From Fistulifera solaris (lineage: Eukaryota > Bacillariophyta > Bacillariophyceae > Naviculales > Stauroneidaceae): a stretch of 46,932 bases of DNA. Below the pieces are notes generated by a model. That model made no database searches. It worked only from the letters and a program-made list of their open reading frames with translations, and had not been told where the DNA came from. The translations under genes were made by a program, and so were the position numbers. The stretch covers positions 1 through 46,932 of the forward strand of contig AP026168.1 in NCBI GenBank assembly GCA_030295235.1. The letters are read 5' to 3'. This document shows, one piece after another, positions 1 through 36,289 of the stretch. Positions within the stretch are counted from its first letter, which is position 1; the number at the start of each line of letters is the position of its first letter.

Positions 1-350
1 CTCCTAACTCCTAACTCCTAACTCCTTCCTAACCCTAACTCCTAACTCCTAACTCCCTAACTCCTAACTCCTAACTCCTAACTCCTAACTCCTAACCCTA
101 ACTCCTAACTCCTAACTCCTAACTCCTAACTCCTAACCCTAACTCCTAACCTCTAACTCCTAACCCTAACCCCAACCCCAACCCTAACCTAACCCTAACC
201 TCTAACCCCTAACCCTAACCCTAACCTCCTAACCCTAACCCTAACCCTAACCCTAACTCCTAACCCTAACTCCTAACCCTAACCCTAACCCTAACCCTAA
301 CCCCTAACCCCTAACCCCTAACCCCAACCCTAACCCCAACCCTAACCCTA
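1..350. repeat. Telomere repeat, C-rich strand, degenerate
   Basis: The first 350 bases are made of CCCTAA units (TTAGGG on the other strand) mixed with a longer variant, CTCCTAA. The variant dominates the outermost 150 bases and canonical CCCTAA dominates from about 180 to 340. A C-rich strand at the 5' end of the + strand is the expected orientation for a left chromosome end. The repeat grades directly into the TTGCAC array near 350. The variant units could be real degenerate telomere or base-calling artefact, since telomeric repeats are often miscalled by nanopore sequencing. Confidence 0.93.
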
Positions 351-3300
351 ACTTGCACTTGCACAACGACTTGCACAACTTGCACTTGCACTTGCACAAC
401 CTGCACAATGCATTTGCACTTCTTGCACAACGCACTTGCACTACTTTGCACACTTGCACTTGAACTTCTTGCACTTGCACTTTAACAACGACTTGCACAA
501 CTTGCACTTGCACAACGCACTTGCACTTGCACTTGCACAACCTGCACAATGCACTTGCACAACCTGCACAATGCATTTGCACTTGCACAACACACTTGCA
601 CAACTAGAACTTGCATTTGCACAACTTGCACAACGCACTTGCCAACAAGCTGCACTTGCACTTGCACTTGCACAACGCACTTGCACAACTTGCACTTGCA
701 CTCTATCAACCCGCACAACTTGGAAAACGACATGCACAACGACTTGCACAACTTGCACTTGCACTTGCACTTGCACAACCTGCACAATGCATTTGCACTT
801 CTTGCACAATGCACTTGCACTACTTGCACACTTGCACTTGAACTTTCTTGCACTTGCACTTTAACAACGGACTTGCACAACTTGCACTTGCACAACGACT
901 TGCACTTGCACTTGCACAACCTGCACAATGCACTTGCACAACCTGCACAATGCATTTGCACTTGCACAACACACTTGCACAACTAGAACTTGCATTTGCA
1001 CAACTTGCACAACGACTTGCCAACAAGCTGCACTTGCACAACGACTTGCACAACTTGCACTTGCAAAACCTGCACTTGCACAAAGAACTTGCACAACTTG
1101 CACTTGCACAACATGCACAACGACTTGCACTTGCACAACCTGCACAATGCACTTGCACAACCTGCACAATGCATTTGCACTTGCACAACACACTTGCACA
1201 ACTAGAACTTGCATTTGCACAACTTGCACAACGCACTTGCCAACAAGCTGCACTTGCACTTGCACTTGCACAACGCACTTGCACAACTTGCACTTGCCAA
1301 CAACTTGCACTTGCACTTGCACTTGCACAAAGAACTTGCACAACTTGCACTTGCACAACATGCACAACGACTTGCACAACTTGCACTTGCACTTGCACAA
1401 CTTGCACAACGCACTTGCATAACTTGAAGAATGCACTTGCACAACCTGCACTTGCACAACACACAACTTGCACTTGCAGAACTTGCACTTGCACTACTTG
1501 CACAACTTGCACACTTGCACTTGAACTTTGCACTTGCACTTGCACTACTTGCACACTTGCACTTGAACTCTTGCACTTGCAATGTAACAACGACTTGCAC
1601 TTGCACTTGAACAACACACTTGCACTTGCACTTGCACTTGCACAACTTGCACTTTCATTTGCACTTGCAAAACGCACATGCACAACTTGCACTTGCACAA
1701 CACTAGCACAACATGCACTTGCACTTGCACTTGCACAACCTGCACAATGCATTTTCTTGCACAACGACTTGCACAACTTGCACTTGCACAACTTGCACTT
1801 GCATTTGCACTTGCACTCTGCACAACTTGCACTTGCACAACGCACTAGCACAACATGCACTTGCACTTGCACAACCTGCACAATGCATTTGCACTTTTGC
1901 ACAACGCACTTGCACTTGCACAACTTGCACTTGCACTTGCAAAACGCACATGCACAACTTGCACTTGCACAACGCACTTGCACAACTTGCACTTGCAGTT
2001 GCACTTGCACAACCTGCACAATGCATTTGCACTTCTTGCACAACGACTTGCACTACTTGTACACTTGCACTTGAACTTCTTGCACTTGCACTGTAACAAC
2101 GACTTGCACAACTTGCACTTGCACAACGACTTGCACTTGCACAACCTGCACAATGCATTTGCACTTCTTGCACAACGCACTTGCACAACTTGCACTTGCA
2201 TTTGCACTTGCACTCGCACAACTTGCACTTGCACAACGACTTGCACATCGACTTGCACAACCTGCACAATGCACTTGCACTTGCACTTGCACAACCTGCA
2301 CAATGCATTTGCACTTCATGGAAAACGACTTGCACAACTTGCACTTGCACAACTTGCACTTGAACTACTTGCACTTGCACTTGAACAACTACTTGCACAA
2401 CTTTCACACTTGCACTTGAACTTCTTGCACTTGCACTTGCACTACTTGCACAACTTGCACACTTGCACTTGAACTTCTTGCACTTGCACTTGAACTCTTG
2501 CACTTGCACTTGAACAACGACTTGCACTTGCACTTGAGCAACACACTTGCACTTGCACTTGCACAACTTGCACTTGCACTTGCACTTGCACTTGCAAAAC
2601 GCATGCACAACTTGCACTTGCACAACGCACTTGCACAACTTGCACTTGCACTTGCACTTGCACAACCTGCACAATGCATTTGCACTTTGCACAACCACTT
2701 GCACTACTTGCAGACTTGCACTTGAACTCTTGCACTTGCAATGTAACAACGCACTTGCACAACTTGCACTTTCACAACTTGCACTTGCATTTGCACTTGC
2801 ACAACGCACTTGCACTTGCACAACACACTTGCACAACTAGAACTTGCATTTGCACAACTTGCACAACGCACTTGCCAACAAGCTGCACTTGCACTTGCAC
2901 TTGCACTTGCACAACTTGCACTTTCACAACGACTTGCACTTGCACAACCTGCACAATGCACTTGCACTTGCACAACACACTTGCACAACTAGAACTTGCA
3001 TTTGCACAACTTGCACAACGACTTGCCAACAAGCTGCACTTGCACTTGCACTTACACTTGCACAACGACTTGCACAACTTGCACTTGCACTTGCACAACT
3101 TGCACTTGCACAACTTGCACACTTGCACTTGAACTTCTTGCACTTGCACTTGCACTACTTGCACACTTGCACTTGAACTTCTTGCACTTGCACTTTAACA
3201 ACGCACGCACTTGCACTTGAACAACACACCTGCACTTGCACTTGCACAACTTGCACTTGCATTTGCACTTGCAAAACGACTTGCACAACGACTTGCACAA

Positions 3301-3892
3301 CATGCACACTTGCACTTGAACTTTGCACTTGCACTTGCACTACTTGCACAACTTGCACACTTGCACTTGAACTTTTGCACTTGCACTTGAACAACGCACT
3401 TGCACTTGCACTTGAACAACACACTTGCACTTGCACTTGCACAACTTGCACTTGCATTTGCACTTGCAAACATGCACAACTTGCACTTGCACAATGCACT
3501 TGCACAACTTGCACTTGCACTTGCACTTGCACAACCTGCACAATGCATTTGCACTTTGCACAACGACTTGCACTACTTGCACACTTGCACTTGAACTTTG
3601 CACTTGCACTTTAACAACGACTTGCACAACTTGCACTTGCACAACGACTTGCACTTGCACAACCTGCACAATGCACTTGCACAACCTGCACAATGCATTT
3701 GCACTTGCACAACACACTTGCACAACTAGAACTTGCATTTGCACAACTTGCACAATGCACTTGCCAACAAGCTGCACTTGCACTTGCACTTGCACAAAGA
3801 TTTGCACAATTTGCACTTTGCACTTGCACAACCTGCACAACTTGCACAACGCACTTGCACAACTTGCACTTGCAGAACCTGCACAACGACTG
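350..3892. repeat. Subtelomeric TTGCAC / TTGCACAAC satellite array
   Basis: About 3.5 kb built almost entirely from TTGCAC hexamers and TTGCACAAC nonamers, with interspersed variants such as CTGCACAATGCA, TTGCACTTGAAC and TTGCATTTGCAC. Unit length varies by multiples of three, so long stretches lack stop codons in several frames on both strands. The strand is strongly skewed: G is nearly confined to the one position in TTGCAC. The array abuts the telomere on the left and ends abruptly at about 3892. Longer units recur within it (see the 50-bp phase marker). I regard it as non-coding satellite. Confidence 0.93.
604..3775. repeat. 50-bp phase-marker unit recurring six times inside the satellite
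   Basis: A distinctive segment beginning CTAGAACTTGCATTTGC and ending CCAACAAGCTGC interrupts the monotonous hexamers at 604-653, 983-1031, 1202-1251, 2837-2886, 2989-3037 and 3726-3775. Copies differ by one or two bases (CGCACTT versus CGACTT or TGCACTT). Each is preceded by CACTTGCACAACACACTTGCACAA and usually by a CCTGCACAATGCA block. Spacing is irregular (about 150 to 1590 bp), suggesting segmental duplication within the array rather than one regular higher-order repeat. Confidence 0.85.
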
Positions 3893-6615: not shown

Positions 6616-8167
6616 TTACGGAGCTCCTTCCTGTCCCAGCCGCTTCTTGTGTCGGCGCTCTTCCAGTTCCGCTAGCGCTTTCATGTCAATATCATCATCG
6701 GGCGCAGCCACAAGTGCGTTAGCGTGATAGCTCATGTCCAAGCCCACAAGCTCTTCCAAACTGTCGGATCGTAGCCATCCCATGTAATTCAACCAAAAAG
6801 AAGGGAGACATGACTCTGATTGGCCATCCGATAAAACAGCATAGCCAACAGTTGATTGGCTAAAAGTGTCGCGTCGGCTTCCCCACGGCCGAGGGAATAA
6901 AACCATCCAACATGGTCTGAGGAACCAAACGCTGCTGACACGCGGGCCGGAGAAGTAAACAATCCCGTCGCAATCAAACCCCAGACGCCGCTGAACAAAT
7001 GAACAGGAATAGCATCTACAGCATCATCAATCTTCCACTTGATTAGCAAAGCGGACCCGCCAATGTAGATCCAGCCTGCCGCCATTCCAATCAGACACGC
7101 GGCCCACGGTTCAATCGTGGCACAGGGAGCTGTGACAGCTACGAGGCCACTTAACAAACCATTCATGGCCATCGTGAGACTAAAAGATAGATCGCCCGTC
7201 CGTCGTTCTTCCAAGTACAGATTGGTAAATATAGCGGTGATTGCCCCCGAAGCGGCCGATAGAGATGTGTTGATGGCGGCAAGAGCCGCAATGGATCCAG
7301 CGTTCTCCACGCCTAACAATAACGCAGAACCCGGATTGAATCCATACCCTATTGTGTGTGGAAAGAGTGCGTTAGCATAGGCTGATGATGCAACTTAGAT
7401 GTGAGAACTCATGGCACTTACATCCGAACCACAACACCATAGTACCCATGAGCTGCAAAGCGACCGAATGCCCGGGAAAATCTTTCGAACAGCTAAGGGC
7501 GCCTTTGGCATCATAAAACGACCCTTTCGAGCACCTAAAATCTTGGCGGCAATCAGAGCCGTCATTCCTCCAGTAGTGTACAACACCGCTACCCGCAAAA
7601 TCAATGGCACCGATTCCTCCCAGTGGATTGGGTTGCGTAGCGCTGAGAAATCCGTACGAGCTCCAGATGGCACGAGCCGAGATGGGATATACAAAACCTG
7701 TCAAAACAAACTGTACATCAAATAGGCGGCCATTTGGCAACGTTCCGCTAAAGTGCCGGCAACAATCGTCACGGCTGTTGAAAGCGTATTGAAAGAACCA
7801 AAACGCCGGATCCACATCACCCATGTATAAAAGCTACCAGAGCCGATGTACGACGTGTCACCGGAACCAGGTTTACCAAAGGCAAAAGCAAAGCCGGTGA
7901 CATACCAAGCCGCTAGGTACAGCGCGTCGAGTAAATTCTTCAGCATCGTGTTTTGTACGTTTTTCTTGCGCACACAGCCGGCGCAAAGCATCGCAAATCC
8001 AGCTTGCATGAAAAGACTAACGCACCAGTTAGAACAAGCAGCCAGGAATGTGTATTAGAGATTGCCGCTTGTGCCTCGGCCTGCAGCTGGTCGGCGATGC
8101 ACTGCAACACTGCATCCGTCTCGCCATGGTATTCGACGGCGCAGCTCTGATAAAGCGTGTGACTCAT
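6616..8167 (-). CDS. Ammonium transporter AMT-A (Amt/Mep/Rh family)
   Basis: Plasma-membrane ammonium channel/transporter, about 492 aa when frames are joined. Amt signatures in order: AGFAMLCAG near the N-terminus (phenylalanine-gate helix), AERCQMAAYL, DFAGSGVVH (first pore histidine), TGGMTALIAAKILG, LWFGWYGFNPGS, and AIPVHLFSGVWG (second pore histidine). It starts MSHTLYQSCAVEYHGETDAVLQC. One 73-nt intron (7349-7421, GTAAGT..AATAG) splits the tryptophan codon in FGWYGF. Frame breaks occur at A-runs 8011-8014, 7703-7706 and 7515-7518, near 7575-7585 and near 6830; each A-run has four A where five restore the frame. The C-terminus (GLDMSYHANA) departs from the GxDxxxHGGxAY consensus kept in the other pair. 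It lies head-to-tail with AMT-B, its closest relative here. Confidence 0.93.
7349..7421 (-). other. AMT-A intron (73 nt)
   Basis: Donor GTAAGT at 7421 and acceptor AATAG ending at 7349 join GGA-T to GG-TAT, restoring the conserved FGWYGFNPG. The same position is split in AMT-B, AMT-C and AMT-D, so this intron predates the duplications. Confidence 0.9.
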
Positions 8168-9142: not shown

Positions 9143-10816
9143 TTATAGGTTGCACTCAGGGCGCTCCTTCTTGTCCGGTGCGCTTTTGTGTTTTCTTTCC
9201 TCCAGTTCAGCCAGCGCCTTCTCATCAACATCGTCGTTCGTAGCACCGTTGGTGCGTTCACATGATAAGCCATATCCAGACCCACCAACTCTTCCAGGGT
9301 ATCCGATCGTAACCATTTCATATAGTTCAACCACAAGAAGAAAGGGTTATTGTTCCTAACGGCCATGCAAGTAGAAACAACACAGCCAAGATTTGATTTC
9401 CCAAAAGTGTCGCGTCGACTTCTCCTCGTCCAAGAGAGTAAAACCAACCCACATGATCCGAAGAACCAAATGCGGTGAGTATGCGAGTCGGGGCCGTAAA
9501 TAGCCCGGTCGCGATCATGCCCCAAACGCCACTAAATAAATGAACTGGAATCGCATCCACAGCGTCATCGATTCTCCATCGGATGAGCAAAGACGACCCG
9601 GCAACGTAAATCCAGCCTGCTGTCATTCCGATCAGACCAGCCGCCCACGGTTCGATAAGAGCACAAGAAGCTGTGACAGCCACGAGTCCGCTCAATAGAC
9701 CGTTCATAGCCATGGTTAGGTTGAAGGACAAGCCCCCGTTCGTCGCTCTTCCAGGTACAATTCGGTGAACATTGCCGTTATGGCCCCAGAAGCACCCGAG
9801 ATCGATGTATTGATGGCAGCCAGAGCGGCAATCGGACCGGAATTCTCCACTCCTAGCAGCAACGCAGATCCTGGATTAAATCCATACCCTTTATAGTGTG
9901 AATAGAGTAAGAATAAGCATCCAAAAGGATTGATGAAGTTGAGCGAAAAGGAGAAACGCGTCACTTACAGCCAAACCACAACATCATCGTCCCCATGAGT
10001 TGCAGAGCGATCGAATGACCGGGAAAATGTTTTGGTTTGGACAATGGTGACCCTTTGGAGTCATAGAATCGACCTTTCGAGCTCCCAATATCTTCGCAGC
10101 AATCAGAGCTGTCATTCCTCCAGTAATATGAACGACACCGCTGCCAGCAAAATCAATGGCTCCAATTCCTCCTAGCGGATCGGGCTGCTTAGCACTTAGG
10201 AATCCATGCGAGCTCCACATGGCACGAGCCGACATGGGATAGACGAACCCAGTCAAAACAAGCTGTATAGTAGATAAGCGGTCATCTGACAGCGTTCAGC
10301 CAATGTACCGGCTACGATAGTAACAGCCGTCGCCGAAAAGGCGTATTGAAAACCAATAGGCCGCGTCAACATCTCCAATGTACAAAACCACCTGTGCCGA
10401 TAAACGAAGTTTCGCCCGATCCAGGTTGACCAAAGGCAAAAGCGTAACCGGTAGTATACCAAGCCAAAGCAGCGCCACAAGCGTCGAGTAAATTCTTGAG
10501 CATTGTATTTTGTACGTTTTTCTTGCGCACACAGCCTAAAACGAGTTGAAAAGCAAAGGAGTCTTTGCGTGAGACACTTTATGGAAAAGAACGATGCGCA
10601 ATTGATCAGTGTTGACGAATTTCGACTTACCAGCACAAAGGACTGCAAAGCCAGCTTGCATGAAAAGAGAAGTGCAGCTGACAAGACGAGAAGCCACGTG
10701 AGTGTCTAAAGCGGCTTTTGGGTCTCAGCCTGTAGTTTATCGGTAATACATTGTAGAACGGCATCGGTCTCGCCTTCGTAAAGGATTGCGCAGCTCGAGT
10801 AAAACGAATTACTCAT
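9143..10816 (-). CDS. Ammonium transporter AMT-B (Amt/Mep/Rh family)
   Basis: Tandem paralogue of AMT-A, about 500 aa when joined. It starts MSNSFYSSCAILYEGETDAVLQC and keeps AGFA.LCAG, CVRKKNVQNTMLKNLLDACGAALAWY, DFAGSGVVHITGGMTALIAAK, FGWYGFNPGS and IPVHLFSGVWG, including both pore histidines. It has two introns: 10536-10630 (95 nt, inside the CAG-CVRKK glycine codon) and 9889-9968 (80 nt, at the shared FG-W position). The first is absent from AMT-A. Frames break at A-runs 10663-10666 and 10255-10258 (same codons as in AMT-A), and near 10380, 10050, 9735 and 9340. The C-terminus GLDMAYHVNAP resembles AMT-A and lacks the usual GGxAY. Predicted role: high-affinity ammonium uptake. Confidence 0.93.
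9889..9968 (-). other. AMT-B shared-position intron (80 nt)
   Basis: Donor GTAAGT at 9968 and acceptor AAAG ending at 9889 restore the FG-WYGFNPG reading, as in the other three AMT genes. Confidence 0.88.
10536..10630 (-). other. AMT-B-specific intron (95 nt)
   Basis: Donor GTAAGT at 10630 and acceptor TTTTAG ending at 10536. Removing it joins G to GC within the conserved LCAG-CVRKK. AMT-A is uninterrupted at the same codon (TGCGCCGGCTGTGTGCGC on the minus strand), so the intron was gained in AMT-B or lost from AMT-A after duplication. Confidence 0.85.
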
Positions 10817-12835: not shown

Positions 12836-14550
12836 ATGGGCTTCCTTCGACTTTGCTCTCTGGCTCTTCTTGTCCTGCTGAAAAGCAGCGTATTAAAGGC
12901 ACTCGAAGTGATAGAAGTGCCGGCTGCCAGTATGACGAAAAGCGACGGCACAAGTGTCGTCTTTACGACGGAACGCTTCGAGAGCTACGCTTTTATACGC
13001 ACGGGTGATGAGATCCGATTCAGCATTACTACCAATTCGAGTGGTATCTTTACCTTACATGCCAGTATATCGAATCCTTCCGATTTAGGAGCTTTGCGAT
13101 TACGAATAGCGAAACGTCCCAAATTTACGGAGCTTCGGTCAGTTTGCCCGTTTCACAAAGCTGGGATGAATGGCATACCATTACAGTTGACAACATTCGT
13201 CTTAGAGAAGGAACACATCCACTGGAGTTGACCGTCATTGAAGGCGGCTGGAAAATACAGTATCTTTATCTCGTTCAAATGGAAGAAGTCGATGTCATCG
13301 GTCCTCATCACTACATGATTCCTGGAGTTGACTTGATGGATTTTGGTATCGAGTATTATCCCTACGAGAAAATTGTTGCAAAATTGAGCGAGGGATTGGT
13401 TTGTTTACAATTTGCCCGTCAAGACCGCCGGAAATTACACATTTTTTGGGTCGCGAGTCCAGAGGGAGGAGGGAGCTTTCGCGTTTTGAATGGCGCCACT
13501 AAGAAACCATACGCCAGCATTCGAAAATTGCCCATGACTGGCGACTGGTTGGATTGGGCAATTGTTGATGTGCCGGATGTACAACTTATTGCGGGTAATG
13601 TTCCCATTAATATATCGGTTACCAGCGACGGGTGGAACTTTTGCATGTTGTCGTACGAGTTATACGATCCTGCACACGATCCTATGAATACAGAAACTAC
13701 TTGTGGAACCAACTTAACAACCACAAATATGGCGGTGGGTGCCTCGACGACTTTTGCAGCCGAGACCATTTGCGACAATGAAGGCATTTCCTTCGAAACG
13801 AGTTCCGAAGGTGGCCTGAATATTGGGTGGTTGGACGAAGGCAACTGGGTTGCTTACGATGTGAACCTTGCGACTGCAGGCATCTACGACGTGGGTGTTC
13901 GATATTCTTCGGTTGATGGTGACGGAGGATTCATGCTTTCGAATTTACTCACTGGTACAGTCTATCACGTGCAGCAAGAACTCGAGTCCACGGGAGATTG
14001 GCAGGCCTGGAGTACCCTTCAAAATGCCACAGTGTCGTTACCGAGTGGTATATCTGTAATACAACTGAAGTCGTTAGGAGGTGGCTGGAATCTCCAATCT
14101 ATTCAACTGACGCGAAGAGAAGCAGGAGCTCCAGTGTCGCCTCCGGTTGCTCCACCGGTGCTACGGCCGGCAGAGTCCCCGGTGCAGGCCACTAATTCTT
14201 GGTCAAGTACCAGGTGTAGCCCCTGTTGGTATCACGCCTGTTCAAAGTCCGTTGCTGTACCGGGAATGCCGGTATTAGCCCCAGTTCCGGTACAAATTCC
14301 AGTAAGGCCAGTTGGTCAGGTAATGCAATCTCCAGTCCCAGCACCGTTGCCGGCGAGACCCTCGAGTACGTTGCCCGTTGTAGTCACCCAAACTGAGGGT
14401 GCTCCTGTCCGATCCCCAACGCCCCTTTTACCAGTGCAGGCGCCGATTCCATTACCAGCTCAATTAATGCCCACAACTCTGTCTCCGCTTCCACTGCAAC
14501 CCGTTCTAGTACCCGCTCGAGCACCCTTTATGTCCCCTACTCTGCTGTGA
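12836..14550 (+). CDS. Secreted protein with three carbohydrate-binding-like modules and a Pro/Val-rich tail
   Basis: Starts MGFLRLCSLALLVLLKSSVLKA, a clear signal peptide. Three repeated beta-sandwich-like modules follow, each ending with a W..W.......G...L.....GGW.....L pattern: DEWHTITVDN..EGGWKIQYLYLV, GDWLDWAIVDV..SDGWNFCML and GDWQAWSTLQN..GGGWNLQSIQL. This matches the style of CBM6/CBM35 galactose-binding-like modules. The C-terminal about 145 residues are a Pro/Val/Ala-rich linker (repeats like PVPAPLPARP) resembling the low-complexity tails of algal cell-wall proteins. Frame breaks occur near 13085-13100 and in the tail near 14205-14260. No catalytic domain is visible. Likely extracellular, binding wall or mucilage polysaccharide. 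About 570 aa. Confidence 0.75.
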
Positions 14551-17849: not shown

Positions 17850-18064
17850 TTGCCAACCAACAACATTGTTATTATTTTGTGTTTAGTGTGTTGCGTTTTT
17901 GGTTGGACGGAGTTTTGTGCGGTCAAGGAGGTCAACATTACCCGGGACTGCGATTATTGCGAGTCGCGGAAAAAGACTGAATTTTTATTGCCGCTAGGAA
18001 AATCGGCACAATTTTATTCCTACACAATCGTCAAGATGAACAACGTCAAGAAAATCATACTCCG
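17850..18064 (+). CDS. Possible fifth member of the PPC-like secreted family, partial
   Basis: A short reading with a strong signal-peptide-like N-terminus (IVIILCLVCCVFGWTEFCAV), then a cysteine-containing stretch and SAQFYSYTIVKMNN, which loosely resembles the NLFRRYSFTV strand of the family at 18437-25517. It ends at a good donor (CCGTAAGTAAAT near 18067), so more exons may follow, but I cannot identify them. No in-frame ATG is visible: the frame opens at a TTG, and the ATG at 17827 is out of frame, so either a base is missing or this is decaying. Confidence 0.35.
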
Positions 18065-18436: not shown

Positions 18437-18978
18437 ATGATGCAACTCGACAAAATCCGTGTAGCCCCTCTTCTGGCTCTGCTCGTAACAAGGGCAATAT
18501 TGCCTCACTCAAAGACCGCCAATATCAAACTCGATCTCTTTGATCGATATCAAGCAAGTCAGAGAGGTCTGTTCTTATGCTATGGCGACCGAATCACTGA
18601 CATTGTTCAATTGAAGTTGGGCTTGTTCGATGGTTCAACGTTTTGATGTCTGACGACTATGATGGTTATTCCTTCCGTTCCGTATGTTGTTGTTTGGTCT
18701 CAATCATGCCATTTGTTTTACAGAGGGCGTTGAGAGTCATGACATGGGTCACGTAGACGTGTATGTTTGTTCGGACCCCGATCCTGAACTATGTTGGAAA
18801 GATCCGGAGTATTCTTCCATGAGCGGCACAAAGAGGAGGAGATAAAACAGTGAATGGTCCGAAAGTGTGGTACGTGATGGTTAAAGCAGTCGTGGGCACC
18901 TCGTCCTATATGAATCATCGATGTGATGAAAACGAGCATTCTTTGACTGATAATTCCGTAACGCATAGCCATCCTTGA
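18437..18978 (+). CDS. Small secreted PPC-like family protein, copy 1 (broken)
   Basis: Starts MMQLDKIRVAPLLALLVTRA, a signal peptide. Family landmarks in order: LFDRYQASQRGLFLCYGDRITDIVQL (matches LFGGR..FLCFG..DIVKL), DGYSFRS, VDVYVCSDPDPELCWKDPEYSSMSG (matches DLFxCxxPDxExCxxNPN), and KVWYVMVKAVVGTSSY..HRCDEN (matches TWYVIVKA..YTVRCDE). Frames break near 18640 and 18840. A possible 42-nt intron (GTATGT..TTTTACAG, 18682-18723) lies between them, but the phase does not fit cleanly. It is the only copy on the + strand and the most diverged. Confidence 0.6.
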
Positions 18979-19475
18979 TTCTTCCGCCGAAAGAATTTCA
19001 TCTCTTGTGTCGGCAGAAAATCGTGTCACAGAATCAAATAGATCCAACTTCTTTCTCCTTTGTATGTCGCACTCAAACGAACCCACGCTACTAGGATATC
19101 AGTAAAGCACCTCCAATTGATTCTTATTGTGCATGTCATCGGGCATGCTTACTAGAGAGAGACGGCCCGCAGCCAACAGCTAGCACACAAGCGCATCAGA
19201 AATGCCACGTTTGCATTACCGTTGACTTTTCTGTATCATCTGTACCGTACATCTTCGGAAAAGGCTTCTCCTTCTGTAGATTCTCATTGACAATATAGTC
19301 GATGGATGAGCATTCAACGTGGCTTACGTCATCCTTACAAAGTTTGCTACGTCACATTGACGACAAAGATTGCGCGTCCCTCTAGTGATGAGACAAGTTC
19401 CGTTACGTCGCTCCTTTCTCATTCCTTTTCGCAATCTTTCATTCATTCGAATAAGAAGATTGTATTATTTCCATC
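18979..19475. other. Intergenic region upstream of the bestrophin-like gene
   Basis: No gene is supported. The minus-strand open frame across 18718-19086 is the antisense shadow of the PPC-like gene. The segment presumably holds the bestrophin-like promoter; no recognisable motif is seen. Confidence 0.5.
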
Positions 19476-20913
19476 ATGCGAATTTCTTCTTCTTCTTATT
19501 CTTCTTTCTATTGCGTCCTCCTGTTGTTGCCGGCATGCATCGCGGCCAGCCCTCCCCAAGTCGCGGTCGCTCCGCCGGCAACTTCGACGACGATGACACC
19601 GACGAAGAATTCTCCTTTGCAGAAAGTTCAAGCGGTCGTCCCTCCCATCGGCACTACTGTTTCGTCGACCGACAACAGTCCCACTACGTATGCTTTCATG
19701 AAGCCCCTCTGCGGATTCTGGAATGCGTTACAGCAGTAACGACTGGTTTATTACTTTGCTTGCAACACCGACTTCTTACATCTTGCGTCGCATCGGAAGT
19801 CACTTTCTCTTCAATTTAATGATCAGTATTGCCGTCGCGTATGCTTCAATTCGTTATCCGGATATCAATTTATCAATTCCCATGGTCGGACACAATCTCT
19901 TGGGTTCGTCGCTCGGTCTGCTGTTGTCGTATCGCACGAACTCGGCGTATGCACGCTTCTGGGAGGCACGCGGATACTGGACGCAATGCAAATCGACTTG
20001 CCGCAACTTGGCGACTATGATGCAATCCTACATATCGCATCATTCCCCAAAGTCTGCAGAAAAGTTCTTGGTCTATTTAGCTGCCTACCCTCTCGCTCTT
20101 ATGGTACGAAGAATGCTCGAGTATAATCCGTTGAAACATTCCCCTTTCACTTAAGCCTTTCCTTTCACTGACCCTACCCTAAAACAGCACCTTTGTCTTG
20201 GTGGGCACGCCATCCTGTCGGAACAAGTGCAAAACTGATTCCACAGCCCGCGTATCCTGAACAATTCTACGAGAGCCCTTCCTTGCCGGCAATCTTATTG
20301 GGCCGTGAATTGCACAACTTGTTGCGCCAGGCGGCCGACGAATCGCCCACCAGTCAACGACACTTGGTGGAAGCCAAGCACTTGTGCGAATGCAGTCACA
20401 TGGTGGATAGTTTAATCAGTAGTATGTCGAGCTGTGAAAGATCTTGCGTACGCCTGTGCCGTGGACGTATTCGCGACACACGTCGCGCTTCCTGACGCTT
20501 TGGATGGGCACTCTCCTTTGCTCTCGTCGGTACGGTCAAGCCTTTCATGATTGTAGCCGTGGTAGCTGCAACGTCCTTTTGCATGTTCGGAATTGAAGGT
20601 AAGTACATAGACGTCGCGGACAACTCACGTTCAATCGCGTTGCTAACCAATTAACTTTAACCATGCGTCGCGCGGGTTTTGGCTTTTATCAATAGAGCTG
20701 GGCCATTTGATAGAGCAACCGTACCTCGGTGATCCACTGGGAAGCGATGATATGTTTGTGGCAGGTCGAATGGAAAATGGTAAACTGACGGATTTAATGG
20801 AGCGCGGTCAGAAGACTCGTCCATACGATATTGGTATTCCGGTCTGCTCTTTGGCGGTACAAATACGCAAGGAAGTGCAGTTGATTGCTTCTATTGGAGG
20901 TAAGAAGCATTAA
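19476..20913 (+). CDS. Bestrophin-like anion channel (UPF0187/RFP-TM type)
   Basis: Starts MRISSSSYSSFYCVLLLLPACIAA, a signal-peptide-like N-terminus. The bestrophin signature follows: GSSLGLLLSYRTNSAYARFWEARGYW, the near-universal RTNxxYxRFWExR motif, preceded by a membrane helix (FLFNLMISIAVAYASIRY). Later frames give VRTPVPWTYSRHTSRFLTLWMGTL, the second hallmark, then hydrophobic helices and GIEELGHLIEQPY, matching the conserved EEIG.xIE.PF element. A 97-nt intron (20599-20695, GTAAGT..AATAG) restores GIE-ELGH. A probable intron lies at about 20104-20187. Frames break near 19735, 20190, 20440 and 20480. The likely stop is 20911-20913. Family members conduct chloride or bicarbonate; algal ones act in thylakoid bicarbonate transport, but no ASAF-type plastid motif is visible here. 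Confidence 0.85.
20599..20695 (+). other. Bestrophin-like gene intron (97 nt)
   Basis: Donor GTAAGT at 20599 and acceptor CAATAG ending at 20695. The join GAA-G / AG-CTG gives GIEELGHLIE, matching the conserved post-helix segment of bestrophin-like proteins. Confidence 0.82.
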
Positions 20914-21077
20914 AAGGAAGAAAGACTTTGATCAGAGACGAATAGTTTATGGCAACAGGTTTTGAAAGGAGTAGTGCTTAGATTCGAGAACCGGTGTGAC
21001 TACGGATTTATACCGGGTATAGTCAACTTTAACCCTACTGATATGAAAATGGTTCATTTGTTTTACTACGTAATAGA

Positions 21078-21558
21078 TTACGGTAGGGGCAAGTTCTCGT
21101 CGCATCGGACTGAGAACGAAGTCGGCGCCAAGCCCGCCTTGACGATCACATACCAGGTTTGCGCTCCTACAATCGTAGCAACAGATTCGCTAGTACCACT
21201 TTCGGTCGAGGAATCGTGTGGGTTTTCCATGCAGGCGCCGGCATCGGAGGTATCGCAAATGAACAAATCGACATCGCCGTTGTCGCCTCCTGTAGTGACG
21301 CATTCGGCGATGTTCGTTTCCTTGTGGTCAAGGTAGAACGAATACCGTCGAAAAAAGGTTCGCACCCAACACAGACGTTCTGGTGGCTTGACCGTCGTTC
21401 AGTTTGACGATATCAAAGTCTTCTCCCAAACACAGAAACTGGTTCCGGCGCCCACCAAACAAATTCATGTCGATGGCTGAGCTTTGGCCTAAAGAAAGGG
21501 CCAAACTTGACAGCATCAAAGCAAAGAAAGTGGAACCACAAGTCCTGTTGAAAGTCAT
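21078..21558 (-). CDS. Small secreted PPC-like family protein, copy 2
   Basis: About 160 aa. It starts MTFNRTCGSTFFALMLSSLALSLGQSSA, a signal peptide. Then come MNLFGGRRNQFLCLGEDFDIVKLNDG, LGANLF, RRYSFYLDHKETNIAECVTTGG, GDVDLFICDTSDAGACMENPH, and GAQTWYVIVKAGLAPTSFSVRCDE near the end. One frameshift near 21340 separates LGANLF from RRYSFY. The GDxDLFxC and TWYVIVKA strands are the pattern of bacterial pre-peptidase C-terminal (PPC) beta-sandwich domains. Conserved cysteines (FLC, AEC, FIC, GAC, VRC) suggest disulfides. Extracellular or vesicular location is inferred; the function is unknown. Confidence 0.78.
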
Positions 21559-21995
21559 GGTCTCGGTTGAATGTTTTGGTAGAAGAATCGATGACCTTTT
21601 TCTTCAGCAAGTATCTGGTAGAATTATTATGAGATGAGATTCAAATGATCGATGCATTCTTCGGTCTCCGATGCCGGCAGAAAACGGCACATTTTGTTTT
21701 CGGTTTTCGGTGAAACTTACGTAAACGCCCAATGCGTTGGCTCGGTCATCGATGATTTCGTTCTGTACAGACTTGCCCGAGTTTCAGGATCTTCAGGATT
21801 CAGGATGCTTCATTTTTTAATAAAAGCAAAACTCTACTGGTAGCCTACAGTCTACAGAATGTACCAAAAGTTACTCCGTTTTATTTTTACGACCTGTAAT
21901 TCTGAATTCTACCCCGTATCCGTCACATGAGTCGTCGTTGTCAACGTTTTCAATCGCCTGCGTCCAGTCGTCAGTCGTCAGTCTTAGGAGCGGGG
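21559..21995. other. Intergenic region upstream of PPC-like copy 2
   Basis: No gene is supported. It contains a poly-T/A stretch (about 21810) and ends at the duplicated target site of the 22.0-22.55 kb MITE. Confidence 0.5.
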
Positions 21996-22006
21996 ATAGC
22001 AGTCAC

Positions 22007-22551
22007 TATAGTTCGTCATAAACATGTTTATGAAAAATCGTATGCAGTTTATGCAAGTTTATTCAGTTTATTGTCTGTCCCTCGTCCCGCTCGCACCAGC
22101 AGAGGTTATCCCGTCTTCAATGATTTTAGACATATCTAAGTATGTTAAATTGCTCCACATTTGAATGGTCAACAACTATTTTGATGGTGGCTTTGAATGT
22201 TGGACGAATTTATGCACCTTTTCTACTTTTTAACATCATATCTATATTTTGCGGTCTTTGGTTGATCAGCAACCCGGCTAACCAAAGCACAACGAATAAT
22301 TTTAGGACATTCAAGCTTTCCAAGTTGTTTGTGTTGCCGTTGTTTAGCTGGTTCAATGCTCAGGGCTTAAAACCATGTTTAGGTTGCTCTGTAATAATTC
22401 ACGCATGCAAACAATGCACGCACAAACCCGTACCACGGACAGACGCTAAAGGCATAAACATGTTTATGAAAAATCGTAAACGAATAAACACGTTTATAAA
22501 CCGTTTAAACAGTTTATGTTTATTGACCAAATAAACACGTGCCGAACTATA
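22007..22551. mobile_element. Second hAT-like MITE, 545 bp, 8-bp target-site duplication
   Basis: Ends are TATAGTTCG at 22007-22015 and its complement CGAACTATA at 22543-22551. Direct repeats flank them: GCAGTCAC at 21999-22006 and 22552-22559. The repeated flank can be read as up to 13 bp (ATAGCAGTCACTA at 21996-22008 and 22549-22561) because it partly overlaps the inverted ends. Inside, an identical 26-bp subterminal direct repeat beginning CATAAACATGTTTATG lies at 22017-22042 and 22453-22478, and GTTTAT/ATAAAC motifs are clustered at both ends, a common transposase-binding layout. The one long open frame (22142-22534) has no transposase features. Confidence 0.8.
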
Positions 22552-22739
22552 GCAGTCACTACTTGTAGATACTTTCTACGTAAACGGGCCATGGAGCAAG
22601 CGGCATGGCGCCTGGCCACATGGCCACCGAAGTGTCGCCCTAAAGATGTTTCATGGTTCATGATTCGAAATTGAAGAGTTTGCTGGAACAAATCAACGGC
22701 TGCATCAGTGCTGTGTATGATACGAAGAACCAATCTAAC

Positions 22740-23239
22740 TTATATTTTCAGCAAGTTAATTGTTTTATACACTGCCATTACTCGCTGGTAACTTAGAAGA
22801 GGAACCTCGTTACACGTGATCGTGTATTCAGAGACTTCGGGCTGCGCTTTGACAATGATGTACCAAGTTCTTTTCCGCCAGCAGTAAAACGGTTTCAGAG
22901 CTACTTTTGGGTTGCGCGACTCATGTTGGGGTTTTGAATACACTCTTCTCCATCGGGATCCTCACAAACGAACAGATCAATGTCACCCGATCCAGTTGTC
23001 GTGCATTCAGCTTTGCTTAGACTTTCCTGGACGTAGAAGGAGTAGCGACGGAAAAGGTTTGCGGCGAGAATGCCACTCTTAGGCTCACCATCGTTCAACT
23101 TGACAATGTCAGAGTTTCTTCCGAAGCACAAGAACTGGTTTTCGCGTCCTCCGAAGAGGTTCGAGTCGACGCCGTAACTCTGACCCATGGAGAGGGCAAA
23201 GAGAGTCGTCATGAGAGCGAAGATGTTGAAAGAGGTCAT
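22740..23239 (-). CDS. Small secreted PPC-like family protein, copy 3
   Basis: Starts MTSFNIFALMTTLFALSMGQSYG, a signal peptide, then DSNLFGGRENQFLCFGRNSDIVKLNDGEP, ANLFRRYSFYVQESLSKAEC, GSGDIDLFVCEDPDGEECIQNPN, and, after a frameshift near 22910, RTWYIIVKAQPEVSEYTITCNE. All family landmarks are present. The segment between the GDIDLF and TWYIIV strands is shorter than in copy 4. The C-terminus runs about 20 residues past the last conserved cysteine. It is the closest match to copy 2. Confidence 0.78.
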
Positions 23240-24317
23240 GATTTGAAGTTTTTGCTGAAGAACTGATGAAGTTGATCGTTTTGACAAAACAAATGAATTA
23301 TGAGACCAGGAAGGAGGATAATTTGCGATGGATGCGATGAACTCTTGACACGATGACCGAAAACGATTACAAAACGTAAAAGTCCTCTTCACAAGTGCCA
23401 CGAAGTCATTTTCGTGCATTCGTAAGGCCCAGAGACACTATATGTAAACGTGTACGTCAATCAGATGGACGTAATGCCAGCTATCTTCTTCGTAAGATTC
23501 ATCATCAATTCGAAGGCTAACGATTTCTTGATACCGATACCGGTACCTGTCAGTATAATAACAATTTAATCGTCAGTCTTTCTTCAGTGGACATTTTTGG
23601 GCGGGGCATGGCACTTGGCACTTCGCACGCAGTATTGTCAGCTGGCAAGATCGAGAATGAATCAATCAAGAATCAAGATCAGCGTGTGCAATACGCAATA
23701 CAAGTAGATCCAAAATAACTTTATCATCACGGTTTGAGCTGAGCTTTCTTAGCTCTTAGTCTTGTTTGAAGTAGTAGCTAGGTAGCTAGTACTCCGTAGT
23801 ACTTAACTACCAAACTCTTTGTTTTTATTTTATTCCGCTGAATGTACGTGAAACGTAAAATCTGTATCCAATCTATGATGTGAGACCTGAGACTGAGACT
23901 ATCAGCTATCAGATACCAGATACCATGTAAGACGTAAGAACGATGACTATGACCAACTCACTGACTCACGACTCCTCGTGACGTTTACTACAATATGCTG
24001 GGCGACTTAAAACTTCGTTCTTCGTTCACACTTCACACCACTACATGATATTTATATAGTCGTTTCATGTGTGTCCAACGATGACGCAGAGAACGTCAGC
24101 TGTTTCACGACCGACCAGGTGATTGTGAGTTGTGAGCTGTGGACTGTGAACCTCTGGCTTCTGGCTAGATTGAGACCCAGTCAGACGTGAACTTTTTCCT
24201 AGGACCTGATACAACATGGATGTACAAAGGTACGGTACGTAGTGGCACCGTGCCGTACTGGTACTGTACCATACCAGTACAAGTATCTTCCAACTTCGAA
24301 CGCATCACGCCGCAACA
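23240..24317. other. Intergenic region between PPC-like copy 3 and the unknown gene at 24318
   Basis: No gene is supported. Short redundant words (for example GAGACTGAGACT and ATCAGATACCAGATACCA around 23885-23925) and a compact inverted-repeat cluster at 24230-24279 (listed separately) are visible. The region separates divergent genes, so it should contain two promoters. Confidence 0.5.
24230..24279. repeat. Cluster of short palindromes upstream of the 24318 gene
   Basis: Three nested or adjacent inverted repeats: GTACGG (24230-24235) with CCGTAC (24253-24258); GGCACCGTGCC, perfect about its central C (24244-24254); and TACTGGTA (24256-24263) with TACCAGTA (24272-24279). They end about 40 bp before the start codon, so they could form hairpins in the 5' leader or bind dimeric regulators. 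Confidence 0.6.
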
Positions 24318-24854
24318 ATGGCAGCGGCTACTTTATCAATGGGATGTTCACTCTGCCATGGGACGCCGATCCTCTTTCACTCCTCAAGGTGTGTTGAGTA
24401 TCTCCATACGAGTAGCTTTACGAACGATCAGACAACGATATCGCAAAGACGTTTTTCCGTCGAAACCAAGGGGAACGAGGTTCGCTTACTCCGTCAATCG
24501 CGGCCGTTGACAACTACTCTTTACGACTTACATTATATGCCAGAGGATTATCTCGTTGTTGGGATTTTGACGCCTCCCAAAGACGATGGGACCTGTGAAG
24601 CACAAATTCTACTCGATCCGTACGGAAGAATATTAGGAGAACAGCGTTATGTCACGGTCACTTCCTACAAAGGACGATCGACGGCCGCATCACTTTCTCA
24701 ACAGTTTCGACAGCGACGGGAAGAACGAATCAAAGAAGAAGACACGAAACAGTACAGGTATTTCAGATTTGGGGATCGATTTGTCGATTGCGCTTCTTTA
24801 CCCTTTGTTGTGGAGGAAGTGGATGGATTGCCTGAGAAGGAATCAACGCTGTAA
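24318..24854 (+). CDS. Hypothetical protein, 178 aa, intact
   Basis: One of the few uninterrupted genes. It starts MAAATLSMGCSLCHGTPILF. The first about 50 residues are Ser/Thr- and Arg-rich with few acidic residues, compatible with an organelle-targeting sequence. The middle (DYLVVGILTPPKDDGTCEAQILLDPYGRILGEQRYVTV) is predicted beta-rich. A charged helix follows (QQFRQRREERIKEEDTKQYRYF), and the end is acidic. I do not recognise a family. The next gene, on the other strand, ends at 24996, 142 bp away (convergent). Confidence 0.55.
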   Translation: MAAATLSMGCSLCHGTPILFHSSRCVEYLHTSSFTNDQTTISQRRFSVETKGNEVRLLRQSRPLTTTLYDLHYMPEDYLVVGILTPPKDDGTCEAQILLDPYGRILGEQRYVTVTSYKGRSTAASLSQQFRQRREERIKEEDTKQYRYFRFGDRFVDCASLPFVVEEVDGLPEKESTL

Positions 24855-24995
24855 CGTATTATTTCGTCTTTAAAGCTTATCCATATGTGGTTTCAAGCAA
24901 CGAACGATGAAATAAAAAGAGAATGGAGACTACAGGTTCGGAATAGCAATGAGTTATACCAGGTATACATCTTATCGAAGTGGGTCGTCAACCGC

Positions 24996-25517
24996 TTAAA
25001 AGAAGTCCTTTTCGTCACAACGAACGGTGTACGTGACTGCATCCAAATTGGCTTTCACAATCACGTACCACGTCTGTGCACCGAATCCCGTCGTTATTTC
25101 CTCTTCGCTATCCGGAGAGATGGAAGAAAAGTTGGGATTGGCAAAGCAATCTTCCGCATCGGGGTTCTTACAGAGAAACAAGTCAACATCGCCGTTTTGA
25201 TCATTCCCGACGCCTACGGTGATGCACCGGGCTCGATTGAAGTTACTACGCACGGTGAAGGAATAACGTCGGAAGAGGTTCAAGCCCAAGACATTGGGAC
25301 CATTCGGTTCACCGTTGTTCAGTTTGATGATGTCTGTCGTTCCTCCAAAGCACAGGAATTGTGTTCCTCGACCGCCTTCAAACAAGCTCGCTTGAATGTT
25401 GCTCGATCTACCCAAAGTGAAGCAGAACACAGCCATGCTGATGAGAACGGCAATCGATGTTGCGGCGGTTCGTGTCATGGTCGATTCGGTCATCTTGGAA
25501 ATATGTTCCTGCATCAA
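24996..25517 (-). CDS. Small secreted PPC-like family protein, copy 4 (intact reference copy)
   Basis: A single uninterrupted exon of 173 aa, and therefore the best template for the family. It starts MMQEHISKMTESTMTRT; the Met at residue 9 or 15 is an alternative start just before the hydrophobic signal segment (SIAVLISMAVFCFTLG). The mature part has SLFEGGRGTQFLCFGGTTDIIKLNNGEP, LGLNLFRRYSFTVRSNFNRARC, NGDVDLFLCKNPDAEDCFANPNFS, then GAQTWYVIVKANLDAVTYTVRCDE at the C-terminus. The YSFTV..GDVDLFLC..TWYVIVKA..YTV strand order matches the PPC fold. Five conserved cysteines recur in every copy. There is no protease domain, so these are free-standing PPC-like modules. Function unknown. Confidence 0.82.
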   Translation of the reverse strand: MMQEHISKMTESTMTRTAATSIAVLISMAVFCFTLGRSSNIQASLFEGGRGTQFLCFGGTTDIIKLNNGEPNGPNVLGLNLFRRYSFTVRSNFNRARCITVGVGNDQNGDVDLFLCKNPDAEDCFANPNFSSISPDSEEEITTGFGAQTWYVIVKANLDAVTYTVRCDEKDFF

Positions 25518-34220: not shown

Positions 34221-36289
34221 TTAGGCATCCGCGTCTTCCGCAGCCTGAGCGACCTCTTTGGGAACTTCGACCTTGCCGTGCTTCGAGGCACGGACTTCCA
34301 TAAGCTCATCGACATCTTCTTTCTTGGGACCGGTCAAGTCATAGGCGGAACCACACGGTGCGAGATATCCAGACCAACTTCCTCTTCCAAAGCATCCACG
34401 CGGAACATACCAGCAGCGTTCAACAACATAAAGAATGGTGTCATGGTAAAAGCGACCCATCCAAAACCCAGCAGACAGAGCAGATTTGCACCAACAAAAG
34501 TTGACCGTCAAAACCACCTTCCGAGTAGAATAAACCAGGGTTGGCCGAGTTGTATCCGGCCAAATCCATAAGCTCGGGCTTGGCGAATAAGCCGACGGCC
34601 AACACACCACATACCGTTGGCAAAGTGTACTGGAACAGCATCGACAGCGTCATCAATCTTCAAGGCAACCAACGTCTTGGACATGGCAATGTACGCCCAG
34701 CCCCGACGGTACCAATGAGGATCGCAGCCCAGGGAGTAATGACAGAACATCCGGCAGTGACAGCCAAGACCACCAAGTGCACCGTTCATGGCCATGGTTA
34801 AGTCGTAGCTGGTTTCACCTGAGGACAGGCCTTCCAAAATGGAATCCGTAAACATGGCAGAAATGCAACCGGCAGCGGCACCATGGTGGTGGTGACAGCG
34901 CACAGAGAAGCGACTTGGGCAGATCCGGCGTTGGCAATCACGAGAGCGGAACCGGGGTTGAATCCGTACCCTAATTAAAATCAAGAGAAAAGTGAGTTAC
35001 GAATGGTACAAAATCAACACCCTTCGACTTCAGTCCTTGCAACTTACAGCCGACCCAGAGGATGAAGGTACCCAAGATCTGCAAAGCGACACTGTGGGGC
35101 TGGAAGGTGACGGGTGTCTCCAAGGGGTTACCATCTTCGTCATAGAAGCGTCCCTTGCGGGGTCCGAGCACAATCGCCGCAATGAGGGCGGTGACACCAC
35201 CAGTCATGTGCACGACACCGGATCCGGCAAAGTCGATGACACCAATATCGCGGAACAAGCTTTCGTTGTTAAAAGCGGAAAGGAAACCATTCGAGCTCCA
35301 CATAGAGTGGACTACGACGGGTACACGAAACCCGTCAAAAGACGGAGTAGCACAAGTAGGCAGCCATCTTGCATCGCTCGGCAACCGTACCGGCAACGAT
35401 CGTGGCAGCCGTCGCCGCGAACGCGAATTGGAAGAAGAAACCAATCCACGAGTCGAAATCACGTAGACCAAAGTAGCTGTCACCAATAAAGGTGCTACCA
35501 ATGCGGTCAGATCCGCCGTAGGCAAATCCGTATCCGACCGTGAAGAAACCAATGGCTCCACCACAGGCATCCAACAAGTTCTTGAGCATGATGTTCTTGA
35601 CGTTCTTGGCACGCACGGAACCAGCGCAAAGCATGGCGAAACCGGCTTGCATCATGAAGACGAGGGCTCCCTGTTAAAGTTGAGATACGACCAAGATGAC
35701 AAACAGGAGAAGATCGCGCAGTCAAGAAGGATAGAGCAAGCAACCATAAAGTTGAAGATAGAGAAAGAAAGTGAGACGTTGTCATGCAAAGCAATCCGAA
35801 TAAGGATTCTTTGACCGATCAACGGTAGGCGAAACACGACGCTCTCGCTCTCTTTAAACACACGCACGCAGCGTCAGAGGCAACACTTGGTATCGCCTCT
35901 GCAATGCTATCCCCAAGCAAATCAGGGCTTCTGAAGCGATCCAAGTGGATGTTGATACTGCGGAACGACAGAGCGCGATACTACCGTTCGACGACGACGA
36001 CGACGACGACAAAACAACAACAACAAGCCTTCCTGTCTTGCTATCGGAAGACTAGCCTTTGTGGATGGGTTTTTTTTCGTTGTAAAAAAACCAGTCGCTC
36101 TAGACAACATATCTCACAACAGCAGAGGCAATCGTGTCAATACGAATGAGATCCGATCGCAACTTACCGCAAAAGGAGAAAGAAGGTATCGACACCGGTG
36201 ACAATGTCATTCGTAATATCGTAGACTCCGCAAATATGAACGGCGACATCTCCATCCGGAGCGGCGCAATAAGCTTCAAAGTCTGCCAT
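34221..36289 (-). CDS. Ammonium transporter AMT-D (Amt/Mep/Rh family)
   Basis: Three exons: 36168-36289, 35048-35670 and 34221-34970 (about 498 codons). It starts MADFEAYCAAPDGDVAVHICGVYDI. Introns are 35671-36167 (497 nt, GTAAGT..AACAG) and 34971-35047 (77 nt, GTAAGT..ATTAG). Signatures: GALVFMMQAGFAMLCAGSVRAKNVKNIML, TVAERCKMAAYL, DFAGSGVVHMTGG, GYGFNPGSALVIAN, AVPVHFANGMW, GYNSANPGLFYS and the C-terminal GLDISHR..GSAYD..GPKKEDVDELMEVRASKHGK. Both pore histidines are present. Frame breaks occur at A-runs 36171-36174 and 35337-35340 (both AAAA where five are expected), and near 34885, 34765, 34690, 34615, 34510 and 34355. It is more GC-rich in its codons than AMT-A and AMT-B. Confidence 0.92.
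34971..35047 (-). other. AMT-D shared-position intron (77 nt)
   Basis: Donor GTAAGT at 35047 and acceptor AATTAG ending at 34971, at the FG-WYGFN position. Confidence 0.88.
35671..36167 (-). other. AMT-D first intron (497 nt)
   Basis: Donor GTAAGT at 36167 and acceptor TTAACAG ending at 35671. It occupies the same codon as the long first intron of AMT-C, so both come from their common ancestor. It contains a CGACGACGACGACGACGAC run near 35990-36010 and an eight-T run near 36070. Confidence 0.8.

Follow-up and report, generated by a model that had tools for sequence, protein, structure and literature searches.

A local tandem family of small PPC-like proteins, putatively secreted, near a contig end of the diatom Fistulifera solaris

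Near one contig end of the diatom Fistulifera solaris lies a row of small genes whose products recall the pre-peptidase C-terminal (PPC) domain of bacterial proteases with no protease attached, which raises the question of what these proteins are and what they may do for the cell. The stretch analysed, hereafter the window, is contig AP026168.1 (46,932 nucleotides; C53 below) of a 51.7-Mb, 61-contig genome assembly, and it starts with CCCTAA telomere-type repeats. The oil-rich F. solaris is described as an allodiploid (PMC5935921, PMC13276009). The species is borne out by a published guide-RNA target and primers for its two homoeologous apt genes (PMC13276009): the target is present exactly twice in the assembly, on C38 and on C39, each time with a different one of the two homoeolog-specific bases reported, and the g510 primer is present once, on C39, where the g510 base stands. 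The window duplicates the tip of contig C24, with 98.8% identity over the 29 kb compared, and the tip of contig C23 is the homoeologous one, 77 to 93% identical to the window in collinear blocks longer than 300 bp past 4 kb. An earlier note, made from the letters of the window, had proposed a local, undescribed and rapidly diverging family of four or five such proteins. We give about an even chance to the reading that the row is a tandem family of long standing, whose small secreted proteins each have a single PPC domain and no enzyme and bind at the cell surface or in the matrix.

Copy 4 (24996..25514, minus strand) is an open frame of 172 amino acids with a signal-like N-terminus and one PPC-like domain. 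A tblastn search of the genome with this copy, which is the independent test of the family, gave 16 matches at E <= 0.01: five in the window, six on C24 and five on C23, that is, 16 of 16 in these three contig ends. Match counts in the genome are lower bounds, as only the best candidates were scored and introns were ignored. Apart from the match of copy 4 to itself, the best E values in the window were 1.6e-28 for copy 3 (22740..23239, minus strand), a member of the same family by homology whose frame is broken in the window; 1.4e-21 for copy 2 (21078..21558, minus strand), of the same family, with one break; and 2.3e-5 for copy 1 (18437..18978, plus strand), a degenerate member with several frame breaks. 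The four copies are thereby recovered where the earlier note had placed them. When copy 2 of C23 was the query, 16 matches at E <= 10 were obtained, again only in the tips of C53, C24 and C23; to the extent that such searches reach, no further members were seen elsewhere, in agreement with a local family. A family profile run on the six frames of the window found eight fragments at E <= 1.1e-4, all of them within the four copies, with the next match at E 1.2 and the best one in the reversed window at E 0.11; since these copies, together with their C24 and C23 counterparts, had served to build the profile, this recovery is not an independent test. The fifth copy suggested at 17850 is not retained: the family profile has no match there at E <= 10, the best Pfam match (E 0.82) is not significant, and the stretch has no aligned counterpart in C23.

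The link to PPC comes through copy 2. Against the PPC profile PF04151, whose gathering cut-off is 25.9 bits, this copy scores 28.1-28.6 bits in C24 and 26.1-27.2 bits in C23, the match spanning profile positions 4-69 of 70. In the window itself the matching stretch (21138..21347, minus strand) reaches 20.8 bits, under the cut-off; a part of C23 copy 3, with 16.4 bits, is under it too. Three of the nine family rows match PF04151 at E <= 10; copies 1 and 4 show no PF04151 match, and copy 4 has no Pfam match. Copies 1, 3 and 4 are assigned to PPC through their homology to copy 2 and not by a profile score of their own, so that the PPC likeness proposed earlier holds by profile for copy 2, in both subgenomes, and falls short for the other three. 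No peptidase family was matched at E <= 10 by the 172- and 159-amino-acid frames of copies 4 and 2, which bears out the description of small, protease-free proteins. Sequence searches of the PDB with copy 4, with the nine-row profile and with the C24 copy-2 piece returned no match. NCBIfam yielded a single hit for copy 4 (E 0.014, 14.7 bits against a cut-off of 300), which was taken as chance.

A second line of evidence is a motif, D-x-D-x-[F/Y] followed downstream by W-Y, which is kept in copies 2, 3 and 4. It reads GDVDL[F/Y] with WYV in copies 2 and 4 and GDIDLF with WYI in copy 3; copy 1 has GHV[N/D], the first Asp being missing. The GDVDLF of copy 2 aligns over GDADLY of the PPC domain 2luw (E 0.48). 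In the PPC domains of the E495 metalloprotease of Pseudoalteromonas, mutating D26, D28, Y30 or Y/W65 is reported to lower protein binding (PMC3327674). Counterparts of these residues stand at nearly equal spacing in copies 2, 3 and 4, with 40 or 41 residues from the first Asp to the W against 39 in E495 (D26 to residue 65). The two cases differ in that E495 has a catalytic domain, that Phe replaces the Tyr in copies 2, 3 and 4 except in C23 copy 4, and that on the diatom side the likeness is one of sequence only. Besides the PPC-like domain the family has an N-terminal stretch, LFxGGR..FLCFG, and the five recurring cysteines reported earlier were found again in the mature part of the copies, C23 copy 1 having a sixth. 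The five cysteines, the single domain behind a signal-like peptide and the diatom host set the family apart from PF04151 domains at large.

The N-terminus is hydrophobic: out of 1000 shuffles, only 2 were as high as the observed stretch for copy 4, 61 for copy 2 and 42 for copy 3. Since the N-terminus is signal-like, and neither another membrane-like stretch nor an enzyme domain is present, a secreted binding protein is the simplest reading. We infer that the product, composed of a signal peptide, a short cysteine-containing N-terminal stretch and one PPC domain, would pass through the endoplasmic reticulum (ER) to the cell surface or matrix, where a beta-sandwich stabilised by disulfides among the five conserved cysteines would expose the D-x-D-x-[F/Y] and W-Y residues. 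These would bind an extracellular protein or polysaccharide, as bacterial PPC binds protein, and the product would be a non-enzymatic adhesive or coat protein. Two disulfides drawn from five cysteines would leave one unpaired, so that two molecules might be linked as a covalent pair. A few weak Pfam matches compete with PF04151, namely Lactococcin (E 0.16) and Afaf (E 0.23), each in one of the nine rows, and, in a second tandem family described below, Psu in a single member out of six (E 0.0041); all were taken as chance.

PPC domains acting apart from a protease have precedents. Protein C of Myxococcus xanthus, a fragment of FibA with two PPC domains, is described as an extracellular coat protein (PMC3236237); it shares with our proposal a protease-free, extracellular PPC region and differs in being cleaved from a protease, whereas F. 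solaris has a separate gene. In Grimontia collagenase the PPC-bearing segment alone is reported to bind collagen (PMC6168687). Unlike the PPC-bearing secreted proteases of families M4, M9 and S8, the frames of copies 4 and 2 hold no catalytic domain. A bolder version of the proposal, which we regard as tentative and rather doubtful, is that the diatom has made a stand-alone extracellular adhesive or coat family out of a bacterial-type PPC substrate-binding domain, possibly paired through the odd cysteine, and has drawn a second array from a separate PPC-like stock.

How many of these genes are intact depends on the quality of the contigs. Between 17,001 and 26,500 (9.5 kb), the window and C24 differ in 66 columns: 49 are bases that the window lacks, 6 are bases that it has in excess and 11 are substitutions. 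Because the window contig is rich in errors, with many bases missing relative to C24, frame breaks seen in the window alone are unsafe, and with 49 of the 66 differing columns being missing bases, part of the frame damage in its copies is probably assembly error. Single splits cannot safely be separated from errors. The frame of copy 4 is open in the window and 100% identical in C24, and a single split interrupts it in C23. In C23 copy 2 reads through as an open frame of 159 amino acids, and both C24 and the window have it split once. Copy 3 carries one split on C24 and one on C23. An in-frame TGA interrupts copy 1 in C23, and several frame breaks do so in C24 and in the window; as it is broken differently on the two sides and has lost the first Asp of the motif, it is most likely a pseudogene.

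The age of the row was read from an eight-row tree that includes several incomplete rows. Homoeologs pair by position for copies 1, 2 and 3 (bootstrap/SH-aLRT 100/99, 99/99 and 92/92). The copy-4 pair is not resolved in the tree, yet these homoeologs are 90% identical to each other against 41 to 54% to the other rows. With each copy on C24 thus matched to its positional partner on C23, the row of four genes is most likely older than the separation of the parental genomes. Between homoeologs the ratio of nonsynonymous to synonymous change (dN/dS), as a whole-piece value and not site by site, stands at 0.11 (0.05-0.22) in copy 4, 0.23 (0.07-0.49) in copy 2, 0.36 (0.22-0.59) in copy 3 and 0.39 (0.19-0.80) in copy 1; when recounted on local alignments, copy 4 came to 0.11, copy 3 to 0.33 and copy 1 to 0.39. 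All values are below 1, and the homoeologous pairs look constrained. The copies differ strongly from one another on account of their age, copies 2 and 4 being close to saturated at synonymous sites (pS 0.775). The rapid divergence proposed in the earlier note is not supported: these homoeolog ratios and the age of the between-copy differences tell against it.

Copy 2 departs from its surroundings in one respect. Its synonymous divergence (dS) between the subgenomes (window 21078-21558, C23:19979-20455) is about 0.10, compared with values from 0.30 to 0.48 for ten rows of neighbouring genes, and the 150-bp bins on its two sides are only 70 and 73% identical between subgenomes; the low dS together with these flanks suggests gene conversion between the homoeologs. 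The in-frame value of about 0.10 is used here, the 0.23 in the neighbour table covering an out-of-frame stretch. Many rows of that table are wrong-frame open reading frames; the ten were taken as real genes, partly for their low dN/dS, and an ankyrin row (dS 0.80, 53% identity, frame trouble) was excluded.

The constraint between homoeologs bears on two other explanations of the row. The proteins might be secreted interaction or defence proteins that bind bacterial proteins, proteases or cell-wall parts and shield the cell from associated bacteria. We consider this unlikely, as dN/dS over whole pieces gives no sign of fast or positive selection and the same four positions are retained in both subgenomes. 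It is a little less likely again that the family has mostly decayed, so that just one or two genes (copies 4 and 2) are still live and its present role is minor at most. Copy 1 is indeed broken in both subgenomes, copy 3 has a break in each, copy 2 keeps an open frame only in C23, and copy 4 does so only in the window and C24; against this, the many single-base gaps of the window relative to C24 mean that some breaks may be artefacts, and dN/dS is below 1 in all four copies, although for copy 1 this may predate the breaks.

Other destinations and other folds were weighed as well. Phe after the cleavage site marks plastid-type targeting, and p24 proteins carry a C-terminal membrane anchor. As a signal-like N-terminus is the sole targeting cue, the proteins could stay in the lumen of the ER, a vacuole or another inner compartment; this appears improbable, given that the C-terminal ends of copies 2 and 4 have no retention-like tail and that no plastid-type Phe was seen near the end of the hydrophobic stretch. 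That the domain is GOLD-like or belongs to another jelly-roll family unrelated to PPC seems to us very improbable. The first structure model had a mean pLDDT of 43.6, and in the low-confidence model of copy 4 PPC domains fit no better than other jelly rolls, the comparison rows being tied. Among Pfam families, PPC is the only one over its cut-off in any copy, and by 19-residue hydropathy copies 2 and 4 have no C-terminal transmembrane-like stretch (best value after residue 45, 1.32 and 0.55, respectively). A secreted binding protein with one PPC domain is the reading that we prefer.

As the earlier note had described, the copies are interleaved with other elements: a bestrophin-like gene (PF25539, E 1.5e-25), a gene at 24318-24854 with no Pfam match at E <= 1, and a repeated element (window 22000-22540), which is about 540 bp long and contains a 17-nt inverted repeat. 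This element has 10 matches on 9 contigs, window and C24 included, and almost no aligned counterpart at the C23 position. Parts of ammonium-transporter genes flank the array on both sides, at 6792-7172, 9330-9713 and 34974-35570 (PF00909, E 9.6e-26, 1.2e-27 and 5.8e-20). At 13279-14550 lies a CBM6-domain protein with a proline-rich tail (PF03422, E 1.3e-20), with a dN/dS of 0.11 between subgenomes. Beside the telomere, a degenerate TTGCAC-type tandem repeat of 3.5 kb (350-3884) gives long open frames on both strands, which are probably spurious.

A fourth place in the genome with a PF04151 match (20.2 bits, under the cut-off) pointed to a second tandem family of small, cysteine-rich, signal-bearing proteins (C42:358902-372900 and C43:263518-276095), interleaved with another cysteine-rich, signal-bearing family on the opposite strand. 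It resembles the window family in its signal-like N-terminus, its richness in cysteine and its tandem layout on a homoeologous pair, and differs from it in having eight cysteines, in the member counted, against five recurring ones. One of its six members matches PF04151 (21.2 bits, E 5.3e-4, under the cut-off), and hhalign finds no sequence relation between the two families (probability 0.2). Its profile matched 34 PDB sequences with a best E of 0.068; elongation factor G accounts for 33 of them and a synthetic nanobody for the last, and we put these matches down to chance. We treat this family as a lead and not as a member of the window family.

Searches of viral contigs with copies 4 and 2, and of prokaryote genomes and plasmids with copy 2, yielded no relatives, phage records and eukaryotes such as other diatoms lying outside their scope, and we make no claim of an origin by gene transfer. 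The family also appears to be undescribed, since searches of the open literature by the name of the domain gave no paper on PPC in diatoms, a scope outside which most subscription papers and the protein databases lie; among the matches listed there for 'pre-peptidase' with alga, all were on bacteria by title. In other diatoms, PPC domains have probably been annotated automatically. We see in the finding a domain already known, met here in a eukaryote in an unusual form, free-standing and conserved. In the descriptions we drew on, PPC belongs to a bacterial protease or to some other large protein (PMC6168687, PMC3236237, PMC3327674). F. solaris is reported to be gene-editable in both subgenomes (PMC13276009), so that the role of these proteins is directly testable. 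If the proposed reading is true, a stand-alone, conserved diatom set would give the PPC domain a role of its own, and would provide a new candidate among the poorly known adhesion and outer-matrix proteins of diatoms.
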